IMG/VR virus record: IMGVR_UViG_3300023481_000015
Location: 1 to 20,833 of that record
Direction: 5' to 3' (one strand)
Origin: a virus
Length of the DNA: 20,833 bases
Positions 3,080 through 18,350 of the stretch are shown in pieces. The notes beneath the pieces are model-generated. The model was not told where the DNA came from. It saw nothing but the letters and a program-made list of their open reading frames with translations, and made no database searches. Numbering within the stretch: position 1 is the first letter of the stretch; the number at the start of each line of letters is the position of its first letter. The position numbers and the translations under genes are program-made.

Positions 3080-3403
3080 ATGAAAGACGAAAATTCAAAA
3101 TACCAAAAACTCGGGGTTCAGATTGGAAAATTAGTGGACCGAAAGAATAAGGCGTATGGCAATTCATTTAGTGAAGCAGGCGAATTTCTTAAAATGTTAT
3201 ACCCTAAAGGTGTTGCACCAGACAAATACCAAGATATGCTCTGTATAGTTAGAATTTTTGATAAGCTAAAACGCATTGCTACAGATAAAGATGCACTAGG
3301 GGAAAGCCCTTTTGCAGACATTACAGGATATGGCCTTCTTGGATTAGAAATGGATTTAAAGAGGGAAAAAAAGAAAAAGGGCAAAGGTAACAATAATGAC
3401 TAA
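3080..3403 (+). CDS. DUF1599 / Nmad1-like all-helical protein
   Basis: This 107-residue protein has the pattern K..AYGNSF near residues 23-30, then FLKMLYPKGV, then IVRIFDKLKRIAT near 56-68, then GESPFADITGYGLLGL near 74-89. This arrangement recalls the DUF1599 (Nucleotide modification associated domain 1) group and MazG-like helical folds found in many phages, where a role in nucleotide or base modification has been proposed from gene context. A ribosome-binding site GGAG (3070-3073) lies 6 bases before the ATG. The last 8 bases overlap the next gene, indicating translational coupling with the nucleotidyltransferase. The C-terminus is a basic KREKKKKGKG tail. The family call is moderate and the biochemical role is not established. 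Confidence 0.6.
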   Translation: MKDENSKYQKLGVQIGKLVDRKNKAYGNSFSEAGEFLKMLYPKGVAPDKYQDMLCIVRIFDKLKRIATDKDALGESPFADITGYGLLGLEMDLKREKKKKGKGNNND

Positions 3404-4376
3404 AAAGTGGAACATAAATCCGTTTGATGGATATAATAGTAAATATAAATGGTTGGAAAACAGAACTATTTTTGCTACTGTACATGGAAGTCAGGCTTAC
3501 CATACCTCCACGCCCGAAAGTGATATTGATGTTAAGGGTTTGGCTATACCGCCAAAGGAATATTTTTTGGGGTTTGCGAATAACTTTGAGCAATCTGAGG
3601 GAAACTACCCTTATGATATAGTAATTTTTGGGCTGCGTAAATTTTTGAAACTAGCGTCAGCGTGTAACCCAAATATTATTGAAATTCTTTTCACTGACCC
3701 AGAAGACTGGATTATTGAAACTCCTATATTTCATAAGCTTTACGAACATAGAAATTTATTTCTTAGCCAACAGGCTAATAACACGTTTAGTGGATATGCA
3801 CATCAACAACTTAAAAGAATTAAAGGGCACAGAAAATGGTTGTTAGAGCCTCCAACCCATAAGCCAGAACGTACCGAATTTGGTCTTCCGGAAAGAGAAA
3901 AATTAAGCTCTTCTGAGCTTGGTGCTACTAAAAATCTATTAGAAGATGGCATTAAATTAGATATTGGTATTATGAAGTTGTTTACTTTAGAGCAGAAGTT
4001 TCAACGTGCTATGCAAGAGTGGAAGCAATATGAGAATTGGAAACGTACTAGAAATAAAAAACGTGCAAAATTGGAAGCTGCTCATGGACTGGACACGAAA
4101 CATGCAATGCACTTAGTTCGCTTGTTAAGGATGGGAAAAGAAATAATTAGTACCGGGGAAGTTCACGTTCGCCGGCCCGATGCAGACGAACTCTTGGAAA
4201 TAAGAAACGGTGCGTGGAGCTATGACAAGATTATTGAGTGGGCAGATAAACAAAAGCAAGAAATTAATGAGTGCCTAAAAACAACAAAGCTGCCTAAAAC
4301 AACAGATAAGGACAAAATTGATAAATTATGCCGAGAATTAGTAGAAGAGGCGCTATTCTCAGATATTTTAAAATAA
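3396..4376 (+). CDS. RlaP-type nucleotidyltransferase (DNA polymerase beta superfamily)
   Basis: The 326-residue protein has the nucleotidyltransferase signature HGSQAYHTSTPESDIDVKG near residues 30-48. G31-S32 begin the fold's helix, and D43 and D45 are the metal-binding pair; D74 in YPYDIVIF is a likely third acid. FLKLASACNPNIIEILF (83-99) and LDTKHAMHLVRLLRMGKEI (232-250) are hallmarks of the predicted nucleotidyltransferase family PF10127/COG3541, whose RlaP branch is linked to RNA repair. A ribosome-binding site AAAGG lies about 9 bases before the ATG. It overlaps the DUF1599-like gene by 8 bases. Substrate and nucleotide are unknown; end repair of host-cleaved tRNA is one possibility from family knowledge. 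Confidence 0.8.
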   Translation: MTKKWNINPFDGYNSKYKWLENRTIFATVHGSQAYHTSTPESDIDVKGLAIPPKEYFLGFANNFEQSEGNYPYDIVIFGLRKFLKLASACNPNIIEILFTDPEDWIIETPIFHKLYEHRNLFLSQQANNTFSGYAHQQLKRIKGHRKWLLEPPTHKPERTEFGLPEREKLSSSELGATKNLLEDGIKLDIGIMKLFTLEQKFQRAMQEWKQYENWKRTRNKKRAKLEAAHGLDTKHAMHLVRLLRMGKEIISTGEVHVRRPDADELLEIRNGAWSYDKIIEWADKQKQEINECLKTTKLPKTTDKDKIDKLCRELVEEALFSDILK

Positions 4377-6343: not shown

Positions 6344-9300
6344 ATGGCTTCAAAAGAACAAAATGCGCTGATAGCAGAACAGACTGTACGGTTAAAAGCA
6401 CAATTGAATGTAATGCGTGACCTAGCCAACGCAGCGCAGCAGATAGATTTTGGTGGAATGGCAAATGGATTTGTACAACTTAATTCTGCTATAAAATCTT
6501 CTGGTGAACAGTTAAATAATTTTAAAACCGGGCAACAGACATTGGCTGACATGAACAAAGCCGCACAAAAAGGCTCTGATGATGTAGACAAAATGGGCCA
6601 AAGTATTGAGCGTTTTGGAAAAAAAGCACTCAAAGCCTCCGTTGTTGTCGCCGCCTTCGAAGGTGCGGCAGGAGGGTTTAACCTGGCTGCAAATGCAGTT
6701 AAAATGTTAACAAGTGTTGCAGGCGGGCTTGTTAGCACTTTTTTCAACTTAGCATCTTCAATTATAGCTCTCCCATTCAAAATCCTATATGGGTTAATGA
6801 ATAATGTGGGTCAGGGTGGTACTGCACTTAGGGAAGAATTCGAGAAGGTTAGGGGAACTTTTGGTGATCTAACAAAGAACGAGGGCAGAGATGTAATACA
6901 ATCCTGGAGAAGAATTGACCACTTTGGAGGCCAGCTTGCAGAAACCGGGCTCTCCATCTGGCGCACAATGGGTAACATGGCAGAGAGTATGGCAGCAGTC
7001 CGTGAAATAGCAGAAAAAATGGGTCCGCTGTTCCACAACTTCAGTAAAGAGCTCAATCACAACGGAGAAAGAATATTCGCATATCAGAAAGGCTTGCACT
7101 TAACTGATGAGGGATTGCGTGCTGTTACCGAACAGGCTGCTAGAACTGGTGTATCTTTGGAAGCATTTTCTGATTTTGATAAAGCTGCCGAAAATGTGTC
7201 ACAACTATCACAAGCATTTGGTATTCAGCTTGACACCTTGCAAATGGTAAAAGAGCAAGACCCCGCTGCAAATATGGATAGAATGAGAAAAGCTTTCCTT
7301 GCTACAGGAAGGTCTATTGAAACAATGACACGGCAAGAACGTGCATTATTGGCACAAACTACTGGATTAGACCAGAAAACTCTATCGTTAGCATTCTCGC
7401 AAAAAAATGCTGGTGTATCATACGCAGAAATTCAAAAACAAGGCGCTAATGCGGAAACTCAACAATTATCACAAGTAGAGGCGATGGAAAGGCTGTCCAA
7501 TTCTATCCAGAGGCTTGTGAAGCAGGGACCACAACTTAAAGGCGGATTTTTTGATATTTTCATACAAGGCTTCTTCCGTGGTGTTAAATGGACCAGAGAA
7601 TTCTGGGGACTAATGCGTAAGCTTCGGTATGCCATGAGGATGACGTATCGTGCTGGAAGACGTGTTGGACAAATGTTTGTTAAATATTTTCCAGGCGTTA
7701 AAGATATGCTTAGAGGTATGGGCGATCTTTTTGACCGACGAAGGTGGAGAAGAATGTTACGTGGCGTGGTGCGTTCTTTTAAGGAATTTTTCAAAGATTT
7801 AACTACAAATCCAAGTATTGCATTATCTAGCTTATTCAAAAAGTTGAAAACTACATTCTTCGATTGGTTTGATGCGACGACCCCATCTGGCCGAAAAGTC
7901 TTAGAAGGATTTAAGACATTTTTGAAGACAATAGGAATTGTTTTTGGTCAGTTAGTTAGAGTTGGCGTAAAAGGACTTTCGGATGCAATTAGGGGAATTG
8001 TAGATTTTATAAAAGACCCGTCAGCTTTTATATCTGGAGTAAACTCAGCCTCTAGTGGATTTTTATCATTTTTAGTTGGTATTTTAGAGCCTGCATGGAA
8101 AGCATTAAAAGACACATGGCCTGCACTTAAAGATGCTTTACTGGATTTATTGTCAATAGCCTGGGAAAAAATTAAACCTGGCATTGTTGCCATGGTCCCA
8201 GTAATAGTTAAATTATTTGCCGGAAGCATGCTCCTAGGAGCCTTATCCCGCTCTATTCAAATGCTATTAGTTACTGCATTTACTAAAGCAACAGTAAGTG
8301 TGTTTTCAGGCTCGGCCCTAAAAACTGTAGGAGGCATGTTTGCAAAAGGGGTGGCAGCAATGACCAGTTCTGGAAATAGTCTGGCCGCCGCTGCACCTTC
8401 AGGTGGAGGAGCCGTGGCAACCGCTGAATTAGCAGCACAAACTAAGGCAGCAGGCGCAACAAGTCAGGCTGCAAAAAGCTTCTCGGTAAGAGACGCAGGA
8501 AAGCTTGGACTTAAACTTTTAGCAATGGCCGCCGCCCTTGCCCTGGGAGGGTTGGCAATAACTTTTGCAGTTATAGAAATTAAGAGCAAATTAGACGAGG
8601 GCGGCCTAACAAGTCCTGTTGACGTTATAGCTCCATTGTTAATTATTGCATCAACAGTTGGAACGATGGTCGCCGTCGCCGCAGCAGCTAAATTATTTAA
8701 TTCAGTTGGCGGAACACGAGAACTAGGAAAGGCGGCTATCGGATTTGTTGTGTCGGGCGTAGCAATTATAGCGATTGCTGGTGTGGCAGCAGGAGTTTCG
8801 GCAATGCTCAGCGGTATATCCCTGCGTGGCGCAGGAAAAATGGCCATTGTTATGTCAACAATAACAGCAATGTTTTTTGCAGCAATTCCTATTTTGGCTG
8901 TTGCAACGGTAATTGGGGCGCTAGTTATGTCAGGGCCATTTGGCGCAGCGGCCGGCGCCTCGGCACTTGTAGGAATAGCGGCAATTTCTTTAATTATTAG
9001 TGTTATGGCAGCAGAGGCACTTAAGCTTACAAAGGTCATTAAGAATGTGCCAGCCGGCTCTGGGTTTGAACAAAAAGCTAATACGTTCGTAAAACTTGTG
9101 CAAATAATAGGAACGTTTACTAGTCTTATTTCTGATGTTTTAAAAGCTACTGCACCCACATTTTCAGATATAATTTCTTCTGTATGGGGGCATGATCCAA
9201 GGAAGGAAGCAAATAGGACAATAGGTAAGCTAACAGAAATGATAAATGCTATTGGAGATCAGGTTCAGGGCGTAGCCAGATCAATTTTAGAAACTCTCAG

Positions 9301-11320
9301 AAACATAAACATTGAAGATTTAGCGAAAGGAGCCCAATTTGCAGATATTTTACAGGCTATTGCATCATTAGCTAAAGCTCTAACGCCGCCAGATAATTTC
9401 TATAATAGTGACCTAGCGGATAGCGGAGCATTGACCCTAATATTAAGCGTTACTTTATATATTAAAAAAATATCTGAGCACCTAGGAGATATAATTCCTA
9501 CTGTCAAAGAAGCCCTTATTCAATTGTCACAAGTGCCAGATATTGGAGAAAGTAAAATAAAAGTAATTTCTGCTTTTTTGACTGGAGTTGGTGGACTGAT
9601 ACAAGCATTTTCTCCATCTGGTGGTGCGATGAATGTGGTATTTCAGTCAATAAGAGCGGGTAGAAATGGGCAAAAGGCCAAGGGAGGCGGGACGCCTACA
9701 GAGGCGCTATTGGCTGGTATTGGTACTGTTTTTCATGGTATTACAGAACAAATTAACGTTCTGCTCCCCAAAATTAAAACTTTCATAAAGAATGTAGTCA
9801 ATATCGCAAAATCAATTCCAGCAGACAAAATAAAACAAGTAGAATTAGTAGGCGGAATATTGGCTTCTGTTCTTACCGCCGTCGGCGGATTTGTGTCTAT
9901 GCTGTCCCCGGAAAATCTTAAGGGATTTGCTAGTGAGGGGCCTAGAATGGTTGGAGCCTTGTCCCAAATGGTTCAAGATATGGTAGGCTCCAGTCTTGAT
10001 GCCCTTGCAGTAAAAATGCCTGAATTAATTAACAAATTGTTTGATGTTACAAAAGGAATTGACGCACGAAAAATTAAACGGGTGTCACAAATTATACCAG
10101 TTATGTCTAGTTTGTTTGATTTGATCGGAAGTTTAACTGCTGCTGTAAATGAGTTAGGAAAAGGTGGAACTGATATTGCATCCGGACAAGCTCAATTTGA
10201 TTCCAGGCTTGGCGGGATCCAAACTATACTGACTAAATTATTTTCTACAGATGATGGTGCGTCAATACTCACTTCATTGAAAAAATTTGGGGATGTAAGA
10301 ATTCCTCGACAAGCGTCAACAAATGCCACACGGCTTAAGGGAGTATTGGAAGCGGTTTCAGCATTGGGGGTATTGTTAACATCGGGTATCATCTCCCAAC
10401 TATCGGGAGGCGGAGATAAAATGAAGGGTGTACATACATTCTTTGCACATCTGTTTATGAGAAATTGGAACGCCGGCGCAGGTGCAGGAATACACTGGTT
10501 AAACGCAATAGACGAGCTTGGGAAAAAATCAATTGCTCCCCGAGCCGCTCCAAATGCAACCAAATTAAAAGAAATTATAGAAGCCACTGGGGATATAGCC
10601 TCAGTAATAACAAGTTCAAATATTAAAGATATTGATGATACCGTAATTTCTACTTTTAATATGGGAGTAAGCAGGCTATTTGATACATCTAGTGCAAGTA
10701 ATCATTGGACAAAATCAATTAAGTCTTTAGGAGGATATAGAGTACCAAGAAATGCGTCATCCAATGCAACAACATTATCTGAGATTGTTGAAAAAATGGG
10801 TCCCCTGGCATTTTTTATTAAGGGAACTAGTACCGCAATCACAAGCATCCTTGGCACACACCCCAACCGACTTTTCAACGCACTTCTACCATCTGAAGCA
10901 GCCGGTTCATGGGTTGGAGCAATTGTTAATTTAGGGGGGTATAGAATACCAACTTCTGCTGCTGACAATGCAAATAATTTAGCTGCCGCACTCACTGAGA
11001 TAGTAGGGGTAAAAGATGGGCTTATTTTGGCAACGACAGGGATAAACGAAGCATTAATAACACAGGCCGGCGACGGCATTATTGCGATAGTAAACAATAT
11101 GGAAAGCATCAGCGCTGCCCTAAACAAAACAACCGGATATAATCTTGCAACAAAGCTTACTAAACTAAATCATGACCTCGGACTTCACTCCACTGGTAAT
11201 CTAACACTTGCACAAGAGCCTGTAAACCTAAATGTAAACTTTACAATCAATATGGATGCGAAAGAACTCGAAGAAGTGCTTCTTGGTCGTGATGACACAA
11301 AATTTGCCACAAAAAATTAA
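6344..11320 (+). CDS. Tail tape measure protein
   Basis: At 1,658 residues this is the longest gene here. It has the classic make-up: a helical, coiled-coil-like N-terminus, an amphipathic body, a cluster of five hydrophobic segments near residues 720-890 (for example KLLAMAAALALGGLAITF), and a C-terminus rich in weak repeats. The last residues (PVNLNVNFTINMDAKELEEV) form a beta-helix ending typical of tape measures. Such proteins fill the tail tube, set its length and enter the host membrane on DNA injection. At the usual 0.15 nm per residue it predicts a tail of about 250 nm, far longer than T4's. Two sets of internal repeats are listed separately. The start at 6344 has no Shine-Dalgarno sequence. 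The functional call is strong from length, composition and position. Confidence 0.9.
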   Translation: MASKEQNALIAEQTVRLKAQLNVMRDLANAAQQIDFGGMANGFVQLNSAIKSSGEQLNNFKTGQQTLADMNKAAQKGSDDVDKMGQSIERFGKKALKASVVVAAFEGAAGGFNLAANAVKMLTSVAGGLVSTFFNLASSIIALPFKILYGLMNNVGQGGTALREEFEKVRGTFGDLTKNEGRDVIQSWRRIDHFGGQLAETGLSIWRTMGNMAESMAAVREIAEKMGPLFHNFSKELNHNGERIFAYQKGLHLTDEGLRAVTEQAARTGVSLEAFSDFDKAAENVSQLSQAFGIQLDTLQMVKEQDPAANMDRMRKAFLATGRSIETMTRQERALLAQTTGLDQKTLSLAFSQKNAGVSYAEIQKQGANAETQQLSQVEAMERLSNSIQRLVKQGPQLKGGFFDIFIQGFFRGVKWTREFWGLMRKLRYAMRMTYRAGRRVGQMFVKYFPGVKDMLRGMGDLFDRRRWRRMLRGVVRSFKEFFKDLTTNPSIALSSLFKKLKTTFFDWFDATTPSGRKVLEGFKTFLKTIGIVFGQLVRVGVKGLSDAIRGIVDFIKDPSAFISGVNSASSGFLSFLVGILEPAWKALKDTWPALKDALLDLLSIAWEKIKPGIVAMVPVIVKLFAGSMLLGALSRSIQMLLVTAFTKATVSVFSGSALKTVGGMFAKGVAAMTSSGNSLAAAAPSGGGAVATAELAAQTKAAGATSQAAKSFSVRDAGKLGLKLLAMAAALALGGLAITFAVIEIKSKLDEGGLTSPVDVIAPLLIIASTVGTMVAVAAAAKLFNSVGGTRELGKAAIGFVVSGVAIIAIAGVAAGVSAMLSGISLRGAGKMAIVMSTITAMFFAAIPILAVATVIGALVMSGPFGAAAGASALVGIAAISLIISVMAAEALKLTKVIKNVPAGSGFEQKANTFVKLVQIIGTFTSLISDVLKATAPTFSDIISSVWGHDPRKEANRTIGKLTEMINAIGDQVQGVARSILETLRNINIEDLAKGAQFADILQAIASLAKALTPPDNFYNSDLADSGALTLILSVTLYIKKISEHLGDIIPTVKEALIQLSQVPDIGESKIKVISAFLTGVGGLIQAFSPSGGAMNVVFQSIRAGRNGQKAKGGGTPTEALLAGIGTVFHGITEQINVLLPKIKTFIKNVVNIAKSIPADKIKQVELVGGILASVLTAVGGFVSMLSPENLKGFASEGPRMVGALSQMVQDMVGSSLDALAVKMPELINKLFDVTKGIDARKIKRVSQIIPVMSSLFDLIGSLTAAVNELGKGGTDIASGQAQFDSRLGGIQTILTKLFSTDDGASILTSLKKFGDVRIPRQASTNATRLKGVLEAVSALGVLLTSGIISQLSGGGDKMKGVHTFFAHLFMRNWNAGAGAGIHWLNAIDELGKKSIAPRAAPNATKLKEIIEATGDIASVITSSNIKDIDDTVISTFNMGVSRLFDTSSASNHWTKSIKSLGGYRVPRNASSNATTLSEIVEKMGPLAFFIKGTSTAITSILGTHPNRLFNALLPSEAAGSWVGAIVNLGGYRIPTSAADNANNLAAALTEIVGVKDGLILATTGINEALITQAGDGIIAIVNNMESISAALNKTTGYNLATKLTKLNHDLGLHSTGNLTLAQEPVNLNVNFTINMDAKELEEVLLGRDDTKFATKN
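9491..10120 (+). repeat. Repeat set A in the tape measure (three units)
   Basis: Three units carry a P....I.......K.....KIK.V pattern, starting near residues 1050 (IIPTVKEALIQL), 1140 (LLPKIKTFIKNV) and 1224 (KMPELINKLFDV). The aligned prolines are 90 and 84 residues apart. Each unit then continues into a hydrophobic V..L....S segment. Confidence 0.55.
10274..11126 (+). repeat. Repeat set B in the tape measure (four units)
   Basis: Four units start near residues 1311 (SLKKFGDVRIP), 1388 (AIDELGKKSIAP), 1458 (SIKSLGGYRVP) and 1526 (AIVNLGGYRIP), each followed by A..NA..L. The periods are 77, 70 and 68 residues. Units 3 and 4 are most alike. Confidence 0.75.
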
Positions 11321-11501: not shown

Positions 11502-14500
11502 ATGACTGAACGAGACGACATACCAGAAAAGATAATTCTAGAAAACGGGGACAGGGCTCGTGATGGAGACGACCCAATAATCCATGTTCGAGAAGATGAT
11601 TTTTCTACTGGGACTAAGGTAAAAATTGGCGAATATTTTCGACAAATGATACCTGATAAAACAAACAGCAGCACCGCTGCTATAAAAGATGGTCCAAATC
11701 TTGGGGTGTTTGTAAACAACGACCCAAATAGTGATGCACATCTCCAAAAACAAACGCAAGAAATACAAGCAAGTTTTGAAAAAATTGGAGTTGCTGGATA
11801 TTTTGAAAAGGACGTTGTTCCTGGTGATGCCGGAGAAATAGATACCGAAACACAAATTCAAGCTTCCAATCTTCTTACTGACCTTGGCGAAAACCCAGAA
11901 TTACTTTCTGACCAAATTTCTGCTACCATTGCAGAAAATGCACTCCAAGGACCAGATAGTTTATATGCACCTGGTGGTGATGGGCAATTATCTGAAAACG
12001 AGGCAGGAACCAAAGAACACGTTTTACAGACCAGGCTTGGTGCCCACTCCCCAAAAAAGCTTTTCGGAATAGCAGAGAAGGACCCCACAATCTCTATTAA
12101 AAAGTTGCGCAACCTGGGATGCCAAATATTACTAGAGGCGTCTGGGGAGCATTATATACCAGACGACCCAAATGACATTAAGCAGGAACTTACTGCTCGT
12201 GCAGCGGCAACGGCTCTTCCGGGAACTGCCCGTTTGGGGTTTCGAGTAGACGCTAATCGTTTTGGCGCAAGTGAAATGATAAATAAAGGAAATATTTTTG
12301 ACCAAAAACCTGGAGAGAAATTCGGGCTTAAAACTGGGGCAAAAGCATCATATGGTAGTGTGAATAACCAGCTTGTACCGTTCTCGGCTATCTCCACTGG
12401 AACTTCAAGTATAATTGTGGGAACCTTATTAGTAAAAACTTTCTCAACAATATTTTTAAATCTAGCAAATATGTTAAGTAAATTTAGCCCAAGGGGCGTA
12501 AAAGGCAACCCCCTTGAGCAATCTCTAACAAACCTAGAAACTAGAAGAAACCGTCTTGGCCACAATGTGCCAGTCAAAGAAAACGACCCTGTATTTGGGC
12601 TTGTGCTTTTAGGTCTTGATGATAACTTACTTATTCGTACAACGAATGAATATAACTCCGCTGTTCAAGCAGGATTAGAGGCATTTTTTGGTGAAGCTGG
12701 TCCGCTCGGGATTGCAGGAGGTCTTGCACCAACAAGGATTGTGGAAGCACCAGGATATTATAATGGTATTCTACGCTTGTTGGTACGTTCTATAGCGGAT
12801 CCGCTATCTTCCGTACTTAGCCTTGCTCCAAGTTTGCCTGGTGGAGTAGAAACCGCTTTGTCAAACGGACCTGCTGATGTTCAACCAATAACAGGTCCAG
12901 CCAGTGACCCAACAACGCTTGGGGAGACTATCAAACTGATTAAAGAATCTAAATTTTTGAAGTTTATGAATGTCATGGCCGCTATGGGAGATTTGGTTTT
13001 ATTGACAAATGACATCAGTTCGCTAGCTAGCACCATTGATGATATAGATGATGCAAGAATAGAAAGAAAATTAGGTTCTGAGATTTCTATGAATGTTCCA
13101 AATGAAAATTCTCTTATTAGGAAAAACAGACTGTCAGACAAAGTAAATAGAAGGTATACAAATACCTTAGCGTGGAACGCCAACACTTTGCCTGCACTCT
13201 ACATGGTCAACAATAATATTGCCAGGGCAGAAGAAAGTTTCGGAGGTTCACAAAAATACAACACTTTAACTGATCGTAGAAATTTTGTGCAAACAGAAAA
13301 TAAGAGATTTTCTGCGGAGTTTGTTGCGGAAACAGAAAAACGACTAGATGCATATTATATGCCATTTTATTTTCACGATCTTAGAACAAATGAAATTATT
13401 TCATTTCACGCTTTTATTGACAGTATATCTGACTCACATACTGCTGAATATAATGAAAGTGAAGGCTACGGAAGAATTGGAAAAATTTACACATATAAGA
13501 ATACTAACAGGTCTATAAGTTTAAGCTTTAAGGTGGTATCTACAAATTCAGATGGGTTTAATATCATGTGGTACAAACTCAATAAATTGCTAATGATGCT
13601 TTACCCCCAATATACTCTTGGAAGGGCACTAAGCAGTAATGGAAAAAAATTCGTGCAGCCGTTCTCACAACTTCCATCCGCATCTCCGCTAATCAGACTT
13701 AGAGTTGGAGATTTAATTAAAAGCAACTTTAGTGAATTTGACTTGGCAAGACTTTTCGGGCTTGGAAGTGATAAATTTGATTTAAATGCTGGCGCATCCC
13801 TTACCAACATACAAAGAAACGCTAATATATTAGCTGAGTATAGAAGAATTAAGAACAGGCAATTAGGCATTGACCCAGAGGGCTTCCCGACCTTTTTAGC
13901 TGGCGAGCAATTCATTATAAAACAGTCCTTTAGGACTATTGGGGATATTGGAAGCACCAGGATAGCAATTAGTAGGACAGCAGAGGCTCATCCAGGAGAA
14001 ACTGCGCAGCAGCGGCGGTCTCGTCGTCGTCACAGCGCACAAAACAACAGGTCTGCGGGTCACCGGCACGGACGCCGACGGCGTCAGCCACAAATATTGA
14101 ATAACGCAAAAGCCACCGTAGTTTCCCCAGTTACTGATGGGGTTTATAATATTAGACTAACATCCGGAGCACCTGGTGAAGACGCAAACACTATATTCCA
14201 AATTGATTTTAGGCCGCTGCCAAATGGGGGAACTCATCAAAGCATAAGATTTGATGTTGATGAGCAAAGAATTCACGATGATGCGATATCACGTGCAGGT
14301 GCAGATACTCAAACCCCTGAAACGCCAGACGACCAAAGTATTACTACAGTTTCACAGTTTTTCTCCCCTGGCGATACAGATGGTGGAACCGTCAGAAACA
14401 GCTCCACGCAAGATGGGGCAAACAATATTCAGAACACTGGACAAGGAAATCCAGTTTTTAAATCTTTTGAAACAACCAAAGGTAAAGGACTGGCAGGTTT

Positions 14501-14777
14501 TATTAAATCGTTGCAATTTAATTGGGATGGAGCAATTTGGGAAACGGAAGACCAAAATTCTAAAGCCCCGAAGTGGTGCACAATTTCAATGGAATTTGCG
14601 CCAGTTCACGACCTAAACCCAGGAATTGATGTAAACGGAAATATGATTTCCCCATTGTATAACATAGGCTCTATTTTAGAGCAAATGAAAGTGAAAAGGT
14701 CTGCGGCATCTGCGAATACCGGGGAAGGCTCTACTCCGAATGGCTCAACAATTAATAGCACTGAGGGCACATCATAA
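11502..14777 (+). CDS. Large baseplate / tail-tube initiator candidate
   Basis: This 1,091-residue protein follows the tape measure and precedes a LysM/gpX-like gene, the place where myoviruses and contractile injection systems keep tube-initiator or LysM-linker baseplate proteins. Residues 1-300 are polar and probably extended. A folded domain spans about 604-790 (YYMPFYFHDLRTNEIISFHA, then SISLSFKVVS). A second block near 987-1048 (KGLAGFIKSLQFNWDG, then KWCTISMEFAPVHDLNPGID) resembles the C-terminal part of such baseplate proteins. Between them lies an odd insert with 11 arginines in 24 residues (838-861), encoded by a GC-rich patch. There is no Shine-Dalgarno sequence. It is a structural baseplate protein with good likelihood; the exact T4 counterpart (gp48/gp54-like) is inferred from order only. 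Confidence 0.62.
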   Translation: MTERDDIPEKIILENGDRARDGDDPIIHVREDDFSTGTKVKIGEYFRQMIPDKTNSSTAAIKDGPNLGVFVNNDPNSDAHLQKQTQEIQASFEKIGVAGYFEKDVVPGDAGEIDTETQIQASNLLTDLGENPELLSDQISATIAENALQGPDSLYAPGGDGQLSENEAGTKEHVLQTRLGAHSPKKLFGIAEKDPTISIKKLRNLGCQILLEASGEHYIPDDPNDIKQELTARAAATALPGTARLGFRVDANRFGASEMINKGNIFDQKPGEKFGLKTGAKASYGSVNNQLVPFSAISTGTSSIIVGTLLVKTFSTIFLNLANMLSKFSPRGVKGNPLEQSLTNLETRRNRLGHNVPVKENDPVFGLVLLGLDDNLLIRTTNEYNSAVQAGLEAFFGEAGPLGIAGGLAPTRIVEAPGYYNGILRLLVRSIADPLSSVLSLAPSLPGGVETALSNGPADVQPITGPASDPTTLGETIKLIKESKFLKFMNVMAAMGDLVLLTNDISSLASTIDDIDDARIERKLGSEISMNVPNENSLIRKNRLSDKVNRRYTNTLAWNANTLPALYMVNNNIARAEESFGGSQKYNTLTDRRNFVQTENKRFSAEFVAETEKRLDAYYMPFYFHDLRTNEIISFHAFIDSISDSHTAEYNESEGYGRIGKIYTYKNTNRSISLSFKVVSTNSDGFNIMWYKLNKLLMMLYPQYTLGRALSSNGKKFVQPFSQLPSASPLIRLRVGDLIKSNFSEFDLARLFGLGSDKFDLNAGASLTNIQRNANILAEYRRIKNRQLGIDPEGFPTFLAGEQFIIKQSFRTIGDIGSTRIAISRTAEAHPGETAQQRRSRRRHSAQNNRSAGHRHGRRRRQPQILNNAKATVVSPVTDGVYNIRLTSGAPGEDANTIFQIDFRPLPNGGTHQSIRFDVDEQRIHDDAISRAGADTQTPETPDDQSITTVSQFFSPGDTDGGTVRNSSTQDGANNIQNTGQGNPVFKSFETTKGKGLAGFIKSLQFNWDGAIWETEDQNSKAPKWCTISMEFAPVHDLNPGIDVNGNMISPLYNIGSILEQMKVKRSAASANTGEGSTPNGSTINSTEGTS
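14001..14090 (+). other. GC-rich, arginine-coding patch in the 1,091-residue protein
   Basis: By hand count 61 of 90 bases (68 %) are G or C, in a genome that is clearly AT-rich. The patch encodes residues 834-863, with R838-R839, R841-R843, R850, R855 and R858-R861 plus three histidines. Arginine codons are almost all CGN here, whereas AGA is common in neighbouring genes. Confidence 0.8.
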
Positions 14778-14799: not shown

Positions 14800-15093
14800 A
14801 TGGTAGTTTCTAGATATTCAAGAACAAAAGTTATTAGAGCTGGCAAGCAATTTGGAACCTCATTTGCAGTAGCTGCGATTAGACTGAATATTGACAATGG
14901 AAATATTCAGACTGAAGAAATGATATTGGATGAAGGAGTACGTATTGACGTGCTTGCAGGAAGAATATATGGAGATGGACGACTATATTGGGTTTTGGCA
15001 GCAGCCTCAAATATTGGCTGGGCAATGCAAGTGCCACCTGGAACAAGAATAGTAATACCAAATTTAGACGACGTTTTACGATTTTCTGGCTAG
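14800..15093 (+). CDS. LysM/gpX-like baseplate protein
   Basis: In this 97-residue protein, residues about 48-91 read RIDVLAGRIYGDGRLYWVLA, then NIGWAMQVPPGTRIVIPN. That is the LysM-like pattern of P2 gpX and of the C-terminal part of T4 gp53: a hydrophobic start, a YGD turn, a W, then a PPGT..IP ending. In virions these small domains clamp other baseplate proteins rather than bind peptidoglycan. The ATG at 14800 is the only plausible start, because an in-frame TAA lies 9 bases upstream. Its position between the tape-measure-proximal protein and the hub-like protein matches the usual order. Confidence 0.75.
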   Translation: MVVSRYSRTKVIRAGKQFGTSFAVAAIRLNIDNGNIQTEEMILDEGVRIDVLAGRIYGDGRLYWVLAAASNIGWAMQVPPGTRIVIPNLDDVLRFSG

Positions 15094-15161: not shown

Positions 15162-18100
15162 ATGTCACTACGACAAAGAAAATTAGTACGGGCAATAAGA
15201 GCCCTTTCAAAATATTATGGAATTCACTCCATACAAGAAACAGCAGAATTGACCGCTCTCAATAATGTTTCTTCCGGGTTGCCAGAAACTGTTTCCACTC
15301 TAGGAACAGGCAATGAAAACATAACTACGTCTTCTCCTACCGTTGAAGAGGCAAAATTGATAGAATTATTAATAGATACTGCCGACGGAGCATATTTGAC
15401 GGTTGATTTTGTAAGAAAGCTTAATGAAGTATTTTCTGGAATATTATCAGCAGACGATAGAAATACCATCGAAGTTAATTTTGGAAGATTGTTGCAACTA
15501 CATTACGAGAAAGGAAATAACTTTGCATTTAGAAGCGAGGGAGAACTTGATGTAAATGCACAATTCCCAGCAGCCCTTGGCCCACCTGGAGGTAGAGTGG
15601 CTTTTGAAGATGTGGGCGTGCGACAAATGTTAGGTCAGGGCGCACCAGGTTCAGACCAAAACTTTATGATAAACCAAAACCCTACAAACCCATCTAAGAT
15701 GTATCCTGGGTTATCTATCTATACTTCTAATTCCCCTCGTGTTACAATCGAGGCACAAAATACTGCTGCTTCAACCATATTTCTAAACGGAATTCCAAGT
15801 GTTGAGTTAATGCGAGCCGTGCCGTATGTAAATGTCGAATTCTTTTTCCCACGACCCCCGATTTCTGCAATTGGAAGACAACTTCAAAATCTTTCACTGA
15901 ATAAGTTTTTACTTGGTGGGTCAACACCGGGAGAAAATTCTGTAACAGAGATTATGGCAAATGCGGACACTACATCTGGAAGAGATATTTCTTCACGTGC
16001 GGGGACCGAAGACAGCCCAATCCCAGACATATATTCCGTAGCAGGAATGGAGTTATTTACAAGCCCACAAACTTTAGTAAATACAGAAGAGCTTTCTGAG
16101 GCTACAAGGTCAAACCCAGTGCTTGATAAATTTAGGCCACTGATGACATTACAAGATTTGAACATTAATATAGAGCCTTCTCGTGGGTTTTTGAGTTATA
16201 AAAGAGGTAATATCTCTTTTGTCCTACATGATAGGTCAAGGCTGGCCGAAGCCGCTGAATTTATTAGAGCCGACCTGTACGGAACAAATGAAATAACAAT
16301 TGAATATGGCTGGTCGCACCCCGATGGAAATTTGCACAATTCGAATAATCCTTACGGAGATTTAATTGATGGTTTGCGAATTAAAGAAAAATACATGGTT
16401 ACAAACTCATCATTTACATTTGACCCCTCTGGGCAAGTAAACATAAAATTAAATATTTCCATGCGAGGGTCAACCGAGTTTAATACAGAACTAATGTCTT
16501 CAGAACGTGGAGGATTTTCTCAATCGTTGCGTGATATTAGAGAAATTCAAGCAGATATTGCAAGATTGCGACAAGAGGCTTTTCCAAATTCATCAGTAAC
16601 AACATCAACAGAAATACGTGGTCACCAAATACTAAATGCCGCACAAGATGCCACCGGAAACATTATTCTAACCGCAGAATTAAGAACTGCCCTAACAAAA
16701 TTTAGAAATAAATATCATAATAGCCATAACCCAAGTGCAGTGGCACTTAGTAACAGATTAGATGACCTGTTCGGAACCGAGGCGAGCAACACCCGTGCTA
16801 GACGGACTGGACAAACAACGCAACATGGCAGCGGTGCCCCGACCGCATTTGCAAACATTCGTAGCACAATACAGCAAAGCATTCAAAATAAAATTACACA
16901 AATGCAAGATGCTCCCGATCCGTTTTTGCTTAATGTTGGCAGTCTGCCAAATGGCGGCGTCAGAAGTATAAATACCGCCCGCAAGGGCGGAGACGAACGT
17001 ACTGCACAACAGGCATTCAACCATCATGGATTTACTTCCGGGGTAACCAACGTCACCCCAACTTCTTTAGCAAAACTATTGTTGCTTTTTGTAGGCCAGC
17101 CCCTCGCAAATACAAACAACTATGATGAAGTTCAAATGTTTTTTTATCCTTTTAATGAATATGCTGGGAAGGCATCAAACCATAATATTGCAAACTTTAT
17201 TGTAGACACAAAATATTTTGCTGATGAACTTGCGAGGTACAGGTTAGAGCACGTATCCAGGAGTTCTGTAATGTCTCTAAATCAGTTTATGAGTTTTATT
17301 GGTGATATTTTGTTGGATGATCCTGCTGCTCCGTCGTATGGACTGTGGACTTCAGATAACGACCCGTTGTTTAGACGAAAAATGACAGACCCCGAAGGAA
17401 GAGTTCCTGGACCAACTGTCCCACGAGATGACCCTGCTGAATTCCAACAAAAAATGCATGATATTTTGCACGATTTTACTCCTGACGGGTCATTCCGTCC
17501 TCCACAGCTTGGAATTCATATTGAAACCCTCCCTGTTAAAACCGGAGTAGAGGAAGGGGACGACGACCTTCAAACAACCAATAAATCTATTTTGAGATTG
17601 CACATTTATGATAAAGCATCAACGGCATATGAACCGATTGGAAGAATGTTATTGGCTGCACAAAGAGACCAAGTCAGAGCCATTGGTGGGCTTTCTAGTG
17701 TCCCTGCGCAAAATTTAGGAAATGCCTCTGTTACAAGAGCAAGAAGAGAGATAGCTGCTTCCACTATTTCCTCAGCATTAAGCAATCGTTTAATAGAAAG
17801 AATATCTGATCCTGACAGTGAACCCGGAGGAGAGCTTACACAAGGAAGTTCTGCAATGTATAGAATTCGAGGAGGCCCTAAAAAACTAAAAGAATTTATT
17901 ATGTTAAATGCGCCTTATGTTATATTCGGGGCCGGAGGTACCACTGTCAAAAGTGCACAAATGAATTCGATGCAAAACTCTGGATTGGCCACTGTCAATC
18001 TTTTAAGAAGTTTTCAACGGGAAGAAGGCGTAACTCCTAGTGGTGAAAATGTAGGAGGTCTTCCGATGAATATAATTCCAACACAAATGAATATGGAATG

Positions 18101-18350
18101 TGTTGGCAATCCACTATTGAATTATATGCAAAGTTATTTCTTGGATTTTCAAACAGGTACAACGGCTGATAATATGTATGCAATAACCGGGGTAGGACAT
18201 AAATTCACACAGGGCGATTTTACAACCAGTGTTAAATTTACCCCGATAGATGCATGGGGAAGTTATCGTTCTTTGATTAGTACGATTGGAAGCTCGTTGG
18301 CAATAGTAAATGAAACTACTGCCAATCCTGGCGATGAAGAAAACGGATAA
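15162..18350 (+). CDS. Large baseplate hub-like protein (gp27/gpD type candidate)
   Basis: In this 1,062-residue protein, about 327-437 (SFVLHDRSRLAEAAEFIRAD, then EITIEYGWSHPDG) resembles the tube-like domain of phage baseplate hubs. The last part, about 970-1036 (GNPLLNYMQSYFLDF, then MYAITGVGHKFTQGDFTTSV), recalls the C-terminal end of P2 gpD and VgrG/gp27-type hubs. Known hubs are about 350-400 residues, so this one is greatly enlarged. A disordered middle (about 470-640) contains an Arg-rich stretch (NTRARRTGQ) and a GC hairpin in its DNA. No lysozyme domain is visible, so any spike or lysozyme must be elsewhere. The order tape measure, LysM, hub supports the call, which is otherwise from motif memory. 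Confidence 0.58.
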   Translation: MSLRQRKLVRAIRALSKYYGIHSIQETAELTALNNVSSGLPETVSTLGTGNENITTSSPTVEEAKLIELLIDTADGAYLTVDFVRKLNEVFSGILSADDRNTIEVNFGRLLQLHYEKGNNFAFRSEGELDVNAQFPAALGPPGGRVAFEDVGVRQMLGQGAPGSDQNFMINQNPTNPSKMYPGLSIYTSNSPRVTIEAQNTAASTIFLNGIPSVELMRAVPYVNVEFFFPRPPISAIGRQLQNLSLNKFLLGGSTPGENSVTEIMANADTTSGRDISSRAGTEDSPIPDIYSVAGMELFTSPQTLVNTEELSEATRSNPVLDKFRPLMTLQDLNINIEPSRGFLSYKRGNISFVLHDRSRLAEAAEFIRADLYGTNEITIEYGWSHPDGNLHNSNNPYGDLIDGLRIKEKYMVTNSSFTFDPSGQVNIKLNISMRGSTEFNTELMSSERGGFSQSLRDIREIQADIARLRQEAFPNSSVTTSTEIRGHQILNAAQDATGNIILTAELRTALTKFRNKYHNSHNPSAVALSNRLDDLFGTEASNTRARRTGQTTQHGSGAPTAFANIRSTIQQSIQNKITQMQDAPDPFLLNVGSLPNGGVRSINTARKGGDERTAQQAFNHHGFTSGVTNVTPTSLAKLLLLFVGQPLANTNNYDEVQMFFYPFNEYAGKASNHNIANFIVDTKYFADELARYRLEHVSRSSVMSLNQFMSFIGDILLDDPAAPSYGLWTSDNDPLFRRKMTDPEGRVPGPTVPRDDPAEFQQKMHDILHDFTPDGSFRPPQLGIHIETLPVKTGVEEGDDDLQTTNKSILRLHIYDKASTAYEPIGRMLLAAQRDQVRAIGGLSSVPAQNLGNASVTRARREIAASTISSALSNRLIERISDPDSEPGGELTQGSSAMYRIRGGPKKLKEFIMLNAPYVIFGAGGTTVKSAQMNSMQNSGLATVNLLRSFQREEGVTPSGENVGGLPMNIIPTQMNMECVGNPLLNYMQSYFLDFQTGTTADNMYAITGVGHKFTQGDFTTSVKFTPIDAWGSYRSLISTIGSSLAIVNETTANPGDEENG
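16967..16990 (+). other. TATAAATA next to a GC-rich hairpin inside the hub-like gene
   Basis: TATAAATA (16967-16974) is followed at once by CCGCCC, loop GCAA, GGGCGG (16975-16990), a perfect 6-bp GC stem with a GNRA-type tetraloop. It encodes SINTARKGG, so coding constraint alone could explain it. There is no U-run after it. Confidence 0.5.

Follow-up and report, generated by a model that had tools for sequence, protein, structure and literature searches.

The question raised by this locus is how a tail or baseplate protein of an uncultivated phage comes to carry a short, extremely arginine-rich and GC-rich segment, and what that segment may do. The window analyzed here, a stretch of viral DNA of 20,833 nucleotides, contains on its plus strand an open reading frame at 11502..14777 encoding a protein of 1091 residues (P0001). 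Direct counting in this frame bore out the original prediction of 11 arginines and 3 histidines at residues 838–861 (14013..14084, plus strand), the highest arginine count of all 24-residue windows in the protein and one reached in none of 5000 shuffles of its sequence (mean maximum 5.1). This run lies inside an Arg-rich loop of 31 residues (832–862; 13995..14087, plus strand) with 11 Arg, 3 His, and no Lys. The G+C content, predicted as about 68%, was 67.8% at 14001–14090 as compared to 41.3% for the gene and 38.5% for the whole window, and the most GC-rich 90-mer of the window (14002–14091; 68.9%) is offset from this segment by a single base. A predicted skew toward CGN codons was also confirmed, with ten CGN codons and one AGG among the arginines of the run as compared to 16 CGN of 51 in the rest of the gene (Fisher p = 0.0004); all four CGG codons of the gene fall inside the loop. 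Short triplet runs are visible in the loop DNA (CAG CAG CGG CGG and CGT CGT CGT). GC also peaks at 8383–8472 and 16763–16852, again in low-complexity linkers of virion-type proteins, the second being an Arg/Gly-type linker at residues 534–563 of a hub-like gene (15162–18350). When open reading frames of at least 250 residues with an ATG start were collected as controls from both strands of 80 relative loci, at least 9 Arg per 24 residues occurred in one of 252, namely the homologue of P0001 in L018, at the same place; L018 is the same contig as L008, described below.

Gene order gives good support for assigning P0001 as a tail or baseplate protein: tape-measure, wedge-like, and hub genes surround it. 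A tape-measure-like gene lies upstream (6344–11320; weak match to phrog_1272, E = 0.00029), a LysM/wedge-like gene of 97 residues lies downstream (14800–15093; phrog_7145, E = 4.6e-10), and two phrog_150 baseplate-hub genes are found farther upstream. Of the relative loci, 71 have a complete 3′ end and sufficient DNA for this comparison, and in 68 of these the P0001 homologue is followed at no more than 600 nt by a homologue of the LysM/wedge-like gene. Tail tube initiators (gp48/gp54-like) have a tube-like β fold and form a hexameric ring between hub and tube; that P0001 is such an initiator is a guess from gene order only. The two hub genes are adjacent (120–2075) and apparently a tandem duplication. 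Also among the tail and baseplate genes are a 66-residue ORF similar to a portion of a major-head-protein PHROG (2077–2277; phrog_138, E = 2e-8) and an RlaP-type RNA-repair nucleotidyltransferase gene (3396–4376; PF10127, E = 4.9e-20). Members of the P0001 family, found on at least 164 contigs, had no match in PHROG (P0001, eight relatives, and the protein of phage RM378), in Pfam up to E = 0.1 (P0001 and the L004 protein), or among PDB sequences searched with either a small or a 54-member profile, and the family deserves description. Only two records of the phage collection matched P0001, each over about 110–120 core residues: Microcystis phage Mel-JY01 (residues 622–740, E = 4e-7) and Rhodothermus phage RM378 (residues 591–702, E = 9e-5).

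A first set of closer relatives came from viral contigs and comprised L001 (equivalent to residues 1–842, where the contig ends), L003 (the C-terminal 282 residues), L004, and L008. Genome contigs searched with P0001 and with a family profile yielded no relative, and the C-terminal part alone found none among viral contigs with the patterns used; L003 surfaced through its neighboring gene. All of these uncultivated phages share with the window the gene order, the core, the insertion described below, and the position of an Arg-rich, Lys-free loop, while the sequence, length (21–35 residues), and GC content of the loop differ. L003, the closest relative, is 72% identical to the window protein, and its loop is 32 residues long as compared to 31, with a common GET-QQR start and PQI end. 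In four sequences (window, L003 fragment, L004, and L008), the 24 residues densest in Arg fall inside the loop; L001 has its densest stretch where the contig cuts it off. These Arg maxima were reached in 245 and 436 of 5000 protein shuffles for L003 and L004, and in none for the window and L008. Arg/Lys counts in the loop are 11/0 (window), 6/0 (L003), 6/0 (L004), and 12/0 (L008), as compared to 51/54, 10/11, 62/42, and 58/40 outside it (one-sided p = 0.0006, 0.027, 0.051, and 0.003, respectively). Summed over the four loops, there are 35 Arg and no Lys in 119 residues, against 5–6% Arg elsewhere. One further ORF of L004, cut by the contig end and beside the tape-measure gene, resembles a GIY-YIG endonuclease by eye (L004:2–475, minus strand).

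These comparisons bear directly on the proposal that the segment is a recent insert from a GC-rich source. Both GC content and codon use do deviate, as that proposal expected: permutation of synonymous codons within the gene reached the GC content of the window loop in 1 of 5000 trials, an excess beyond what the amino acids impose, and the +1 frame is open across 44 codons. However, the nearest relative has a homologous loop of nearly equal length, two more (L004 and L008) have Arg loops at the same place, and relative to its nearest relative the window carries no foreign insert here. The original prediction had named the same basic insert, with GC-rich codons and present in every relative, as a refuting observation; such an insert was found in the nearest relatives only. 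A donor search with the loop DNA in plasmid and phage collections gave a best listed E value of 0.3, with chance-level matches to GC-rich genomes, and no record listed (79 plasmids and 71 phages) spanned 80% of the query. The +1-frame peptide had no plasmid match, its matches in the PDB were taken as chance, and CGN codons in any case keep that frame free of stops. The compositional deviation is thus real but its foreign origin is unsupported, and we regard a recent insertion as very improbable. In L003, L004, and L008, loop GC was as expected from synonymous permutation (reached in 958, 1513, and 1818 of 5000, respectively). High GC in the loop therefore comes mainly from its Arg/Ala/Gly-type composition, with an extra codon effect in the window alone among those compared. 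This extra effect probably arose through arginines derived from neighboring Gln and His codons (CAR/CAY to CGR/CGY). CGN codons account for 29 of 35 loop arginines in the four phages together as compared to 70 of 181 elsewhere (Mantel–Haenszel p = 1.7e-6, for sequences that are not independent), while in the loop of another family member, L064, all six arginines are AGA.

An assembly or sequencing error was considered because the L001 contig ends and the L003 contig begins in the same loop, a place that may assemble poorly or vary. Both contigs come from one sample (3300025018), and the 5′ start of L003 is identical to the end of L001 over 126 bases, after which the two part ways within the Arg loop. 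Such a pattern resembles a branch of the assembly graph at a variable place, and strain variation at the loop in that sample is possible. In the window, no stop interrupts the frame, relatives align in frame on either side of the loop, the loop length fits, and similar loops occur in independent samples, so that an error is extremely improbable. Two other readings of the DNA were tried and rejected. An overlapping gene in the +1 frame would be open in the window over the 44 codons noted above and also across the printed loops of L003 and L004, but is interrupted by stops in L008; its peptide gave four PDB matches at E up to 10, three of them designed TIM barrels over 20 residues (E = 0.00085–0.0054) and the fourth with E = 1.1. 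As a DNA or RNA element, the segment 13990–14100 folded no better as RNA than its shuffles (z = −0.17; 83 of 200 as good), and Rfam had no match in the window. A perfect 7+1+7 palindrome is present at 14071–14085; the loop DNA of relatives was compared for it by eye only.

To place the loop within the protein family, the conserved core was used to scan for relatives, of which 164 were detected and the best 80 kept. After removal of seven sequences cut at the 3′ end and six with identical C-terminal parts, the alignment held 68 sequences including the window, 63 of them complete at both ends. A conserved core block at residues 615–753 (13344..13760, plus strand) is 76–88% identical between the window and L008, L004, and L001, as compared to 27–47% for a 154-residue piece of the insertion. 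A C-terminal conserved block at residues 983–1058 (14448..14675, plus strand) spans 73–80 residues in the 68 aligned sequences, with a mean identity to the window of 0.47; the corresponding value for the core block is 0.60, and for segments of the insertion 0.09–0.17. Between them lies a family-specific insertion in a hairpin of the core, at approximately residues 741–993 (13722..14480, plus strand). In a MAFFT alignment, Mel-JY01 and RM378 have about 2 residues in its place, as compared to about 250 in the window, and the insertion is long and variable in the other aligned family members. The tblastn match to Mel-JY01 stops at residue 740, right where the insertion starts; the hhalign match to RM378 stops ahead of this point, and the two-residue gap there rests on MAFFT.

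Structure prediction suggests what this insertion may contain. An AlphaFold2 model of residues 754–907 had a mean pLDDT of 59.6, with 71–78 in its last three strand blocks; the full-length model (pLDDT 32.9) was too poor for use, although the same barrel elements were present. Both low-confidence models agree on strands at 803–806, 822–825, 869–878, 881–886, and 898–902, a possible small β barrel at approximately residues 801–906 (13902..14219, plus strand), and both place the Arg-rich loop between the second and third predicted strands, with a low-confidence helix at 835–850 inside it. Foldseek searches with the barrel model (pLDDT 59.6) listed mostly SH3 domains, at E of about 1 and a probability of about 0.1 (0 of 468 at E ≤ 0.001), and an SH3-like small barrel is one possible description of this piece. 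The segment had been described as a linker between two folded blocks. These low-confidence models indicate that this description is too simple, since they place the segment between strands predicted for a small domain, one that in turn interrupts the conserved core.

Across the family, the segment holding the Arg loop is the most length-variable part of the insertion (1–152 residues, SD 35.2 over the 68 sequences), with an SD of 11–15 residues in other parts of the insertion and 2.4 and 1.4 in the two core blocks; alignment within the insertion is unsure at the divergence of this family. At least 7 Arg per 24 residues within the insertion occur in 5 of the 63 complete members (window, 11; L008, 10; L004, 7; L064, 7; L090, 7). 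The densest Arg window of the protein lies within the insertion in 15 of 63 members, with 11.3 expected by length, giving no family-wide enrichment. Alternatives at the loop are a Lys-rich form in L020 and a neutral one in L019. Net charge of the loop segment is positive in 43 of 68 sequences (63%; median +2) and that of the linker after it negative in 56 of 68, with no correlation between the loop charge and the acidic-linker charge of the same insertion (rho = −0.13, p = 0.28). In the tree, the window groups with L001 and L004 (support 98/91), while L008 clusters, at weak support (83/40), with four members that have no Arg loop; the smallest well-supported clade holding all four Arg-loop phages (100/99) has eight members, four of them without it. 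With few carriers, other loop types, and a minimum of three trait changes forced by the tree, the Arg loop is a lineage-level and labile feature.

This pattern makes a neutral variable loop a serious rival, in which slippage and point mutation within CGN/CAR/CAY-type codons let a freely varying segment expand or drift and the arginines have no role. The wide variation in length and sequence, the sporadic occurrence of the Arg-rich form (5 of 63, with its repeated changes on the tree), the triplet runs and CGN preference in the loop DNA, and the GC-rich low-complexity linkers at 8383–8472 and 16763–16852 would all be accommodated by it. We nevertheless consider it somewhat unlikely, since four phages, their loops otherwise hardly similar, all retain the Arg bias and have no Lys there, the 35 Arg in 119 loop residues are far above the background elsewhere, and the other long ORFs of these loci show no comparable cluster. 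At the opposite extreme, the loop could be a protamine-like or polybasic element touching DNA or the host envelope (lipopolysaccharide or phospholipid) during ejection. Its Arg-only polybasic composition, comparable to that of Arg-rich segments that bind nucleic acids, would allow such contact. Yet most of the family is without the Arg-rich form, some relatives have a Lys-rich or a neutral loop instead, and nothing places the loop toward the tube lumen or the host; we hold this putative contact to be improbable.

Taking the observed position, composition, and variability of the loop together, the account that we favor, and judge to be probably correct, is a flexible polybasic loop that a small phage lineage retains and that makes electrostatic contact within the baseplate, its exposure and contact being inferred. 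The loop would be exposed on the baseplate, where its arginines may make loose electrostatic contact with an acidic neighboring surface or another polyanion; such contact would constrain the charge of the loop and not its exact sequence. An acidic neighbor is suggested because acidic proteins predominate in the baseplates of the window phage and its relatives, with net charges of −12 to −39 for P0001 (complete members of the four Arg-loop phages) and −21 to −43 for the hub-like proteins measured; wedge-like proteins carry +2 and tape measures +40 to −20. Among the three options originally offered for the segment (a recent insert, a nucleic-acid or membrane contact, or a surface-exposed variable loop), the last is thus best supported: its variability is confirmed (SD 35 as compared to 2.4 in the core), while exposure is presumed. 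Against the charge-contact reading stands the CGN enrichment in the loops, which selection on the protein alone does not explain. A more specific version, in which a Lys-free, Arg-only loop at the tail base of a small, uncultivated, contractile-tailed lineage is under selection for charge and helps baseplate assembly or opening by contacting a polyanion (genome, lipopolysaccharide, or acidic baseplate surface), is improbable. Should the Arg loop prove functional, it would exemplify a tail protein in which selection acts on charge alone.

Among the papers listed in the literature searches, none concerned an arginine-rich loop in the baseplate protein of a phage. Beyond the relatives described above, the closest known systems are two core-matching proteins and the insertion domains of contractile-phage baseplate proteins. 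The 458-residue protein of Rhodothermus phage RM378 matches the conserved core of the window protein (hhalign probability 96.6%) and is followed by a 72-residue gene with weak tail-family matches (E = 0.014). In Microcystis phage Mel-JY01, the C-terminal part of a 2255-residue protein matches this core, and a small phrog_7145-like gene comes next, as in the window. The Mel-JY01 protein (L009:7–6774) also appears by eye to contain many repeats of about 40 residues, with the P0001-like core near its C terminus. In contrast to the window, both phages lack the insertion apart from the approximately two residues noted above, and hence lack the Arg loop. What began as a candidate foreign insert gives way to a familiar arrangement, in which a conserved structural core bears a fast-changing inserted domain. 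An example of an insertion domain in a contractile-phage baseplate protein is found in gp31 of the Anabaena myophage A-1(L) (PMC10966104). Although gp31 is a different protein, a wedge component for which the present analysis showed no sequence relation to P0001, it resembles P0001 in having a domain inserted in a conserved baseplate fold, and in gp31 this domain engages partners within the baseplate or the fibers.
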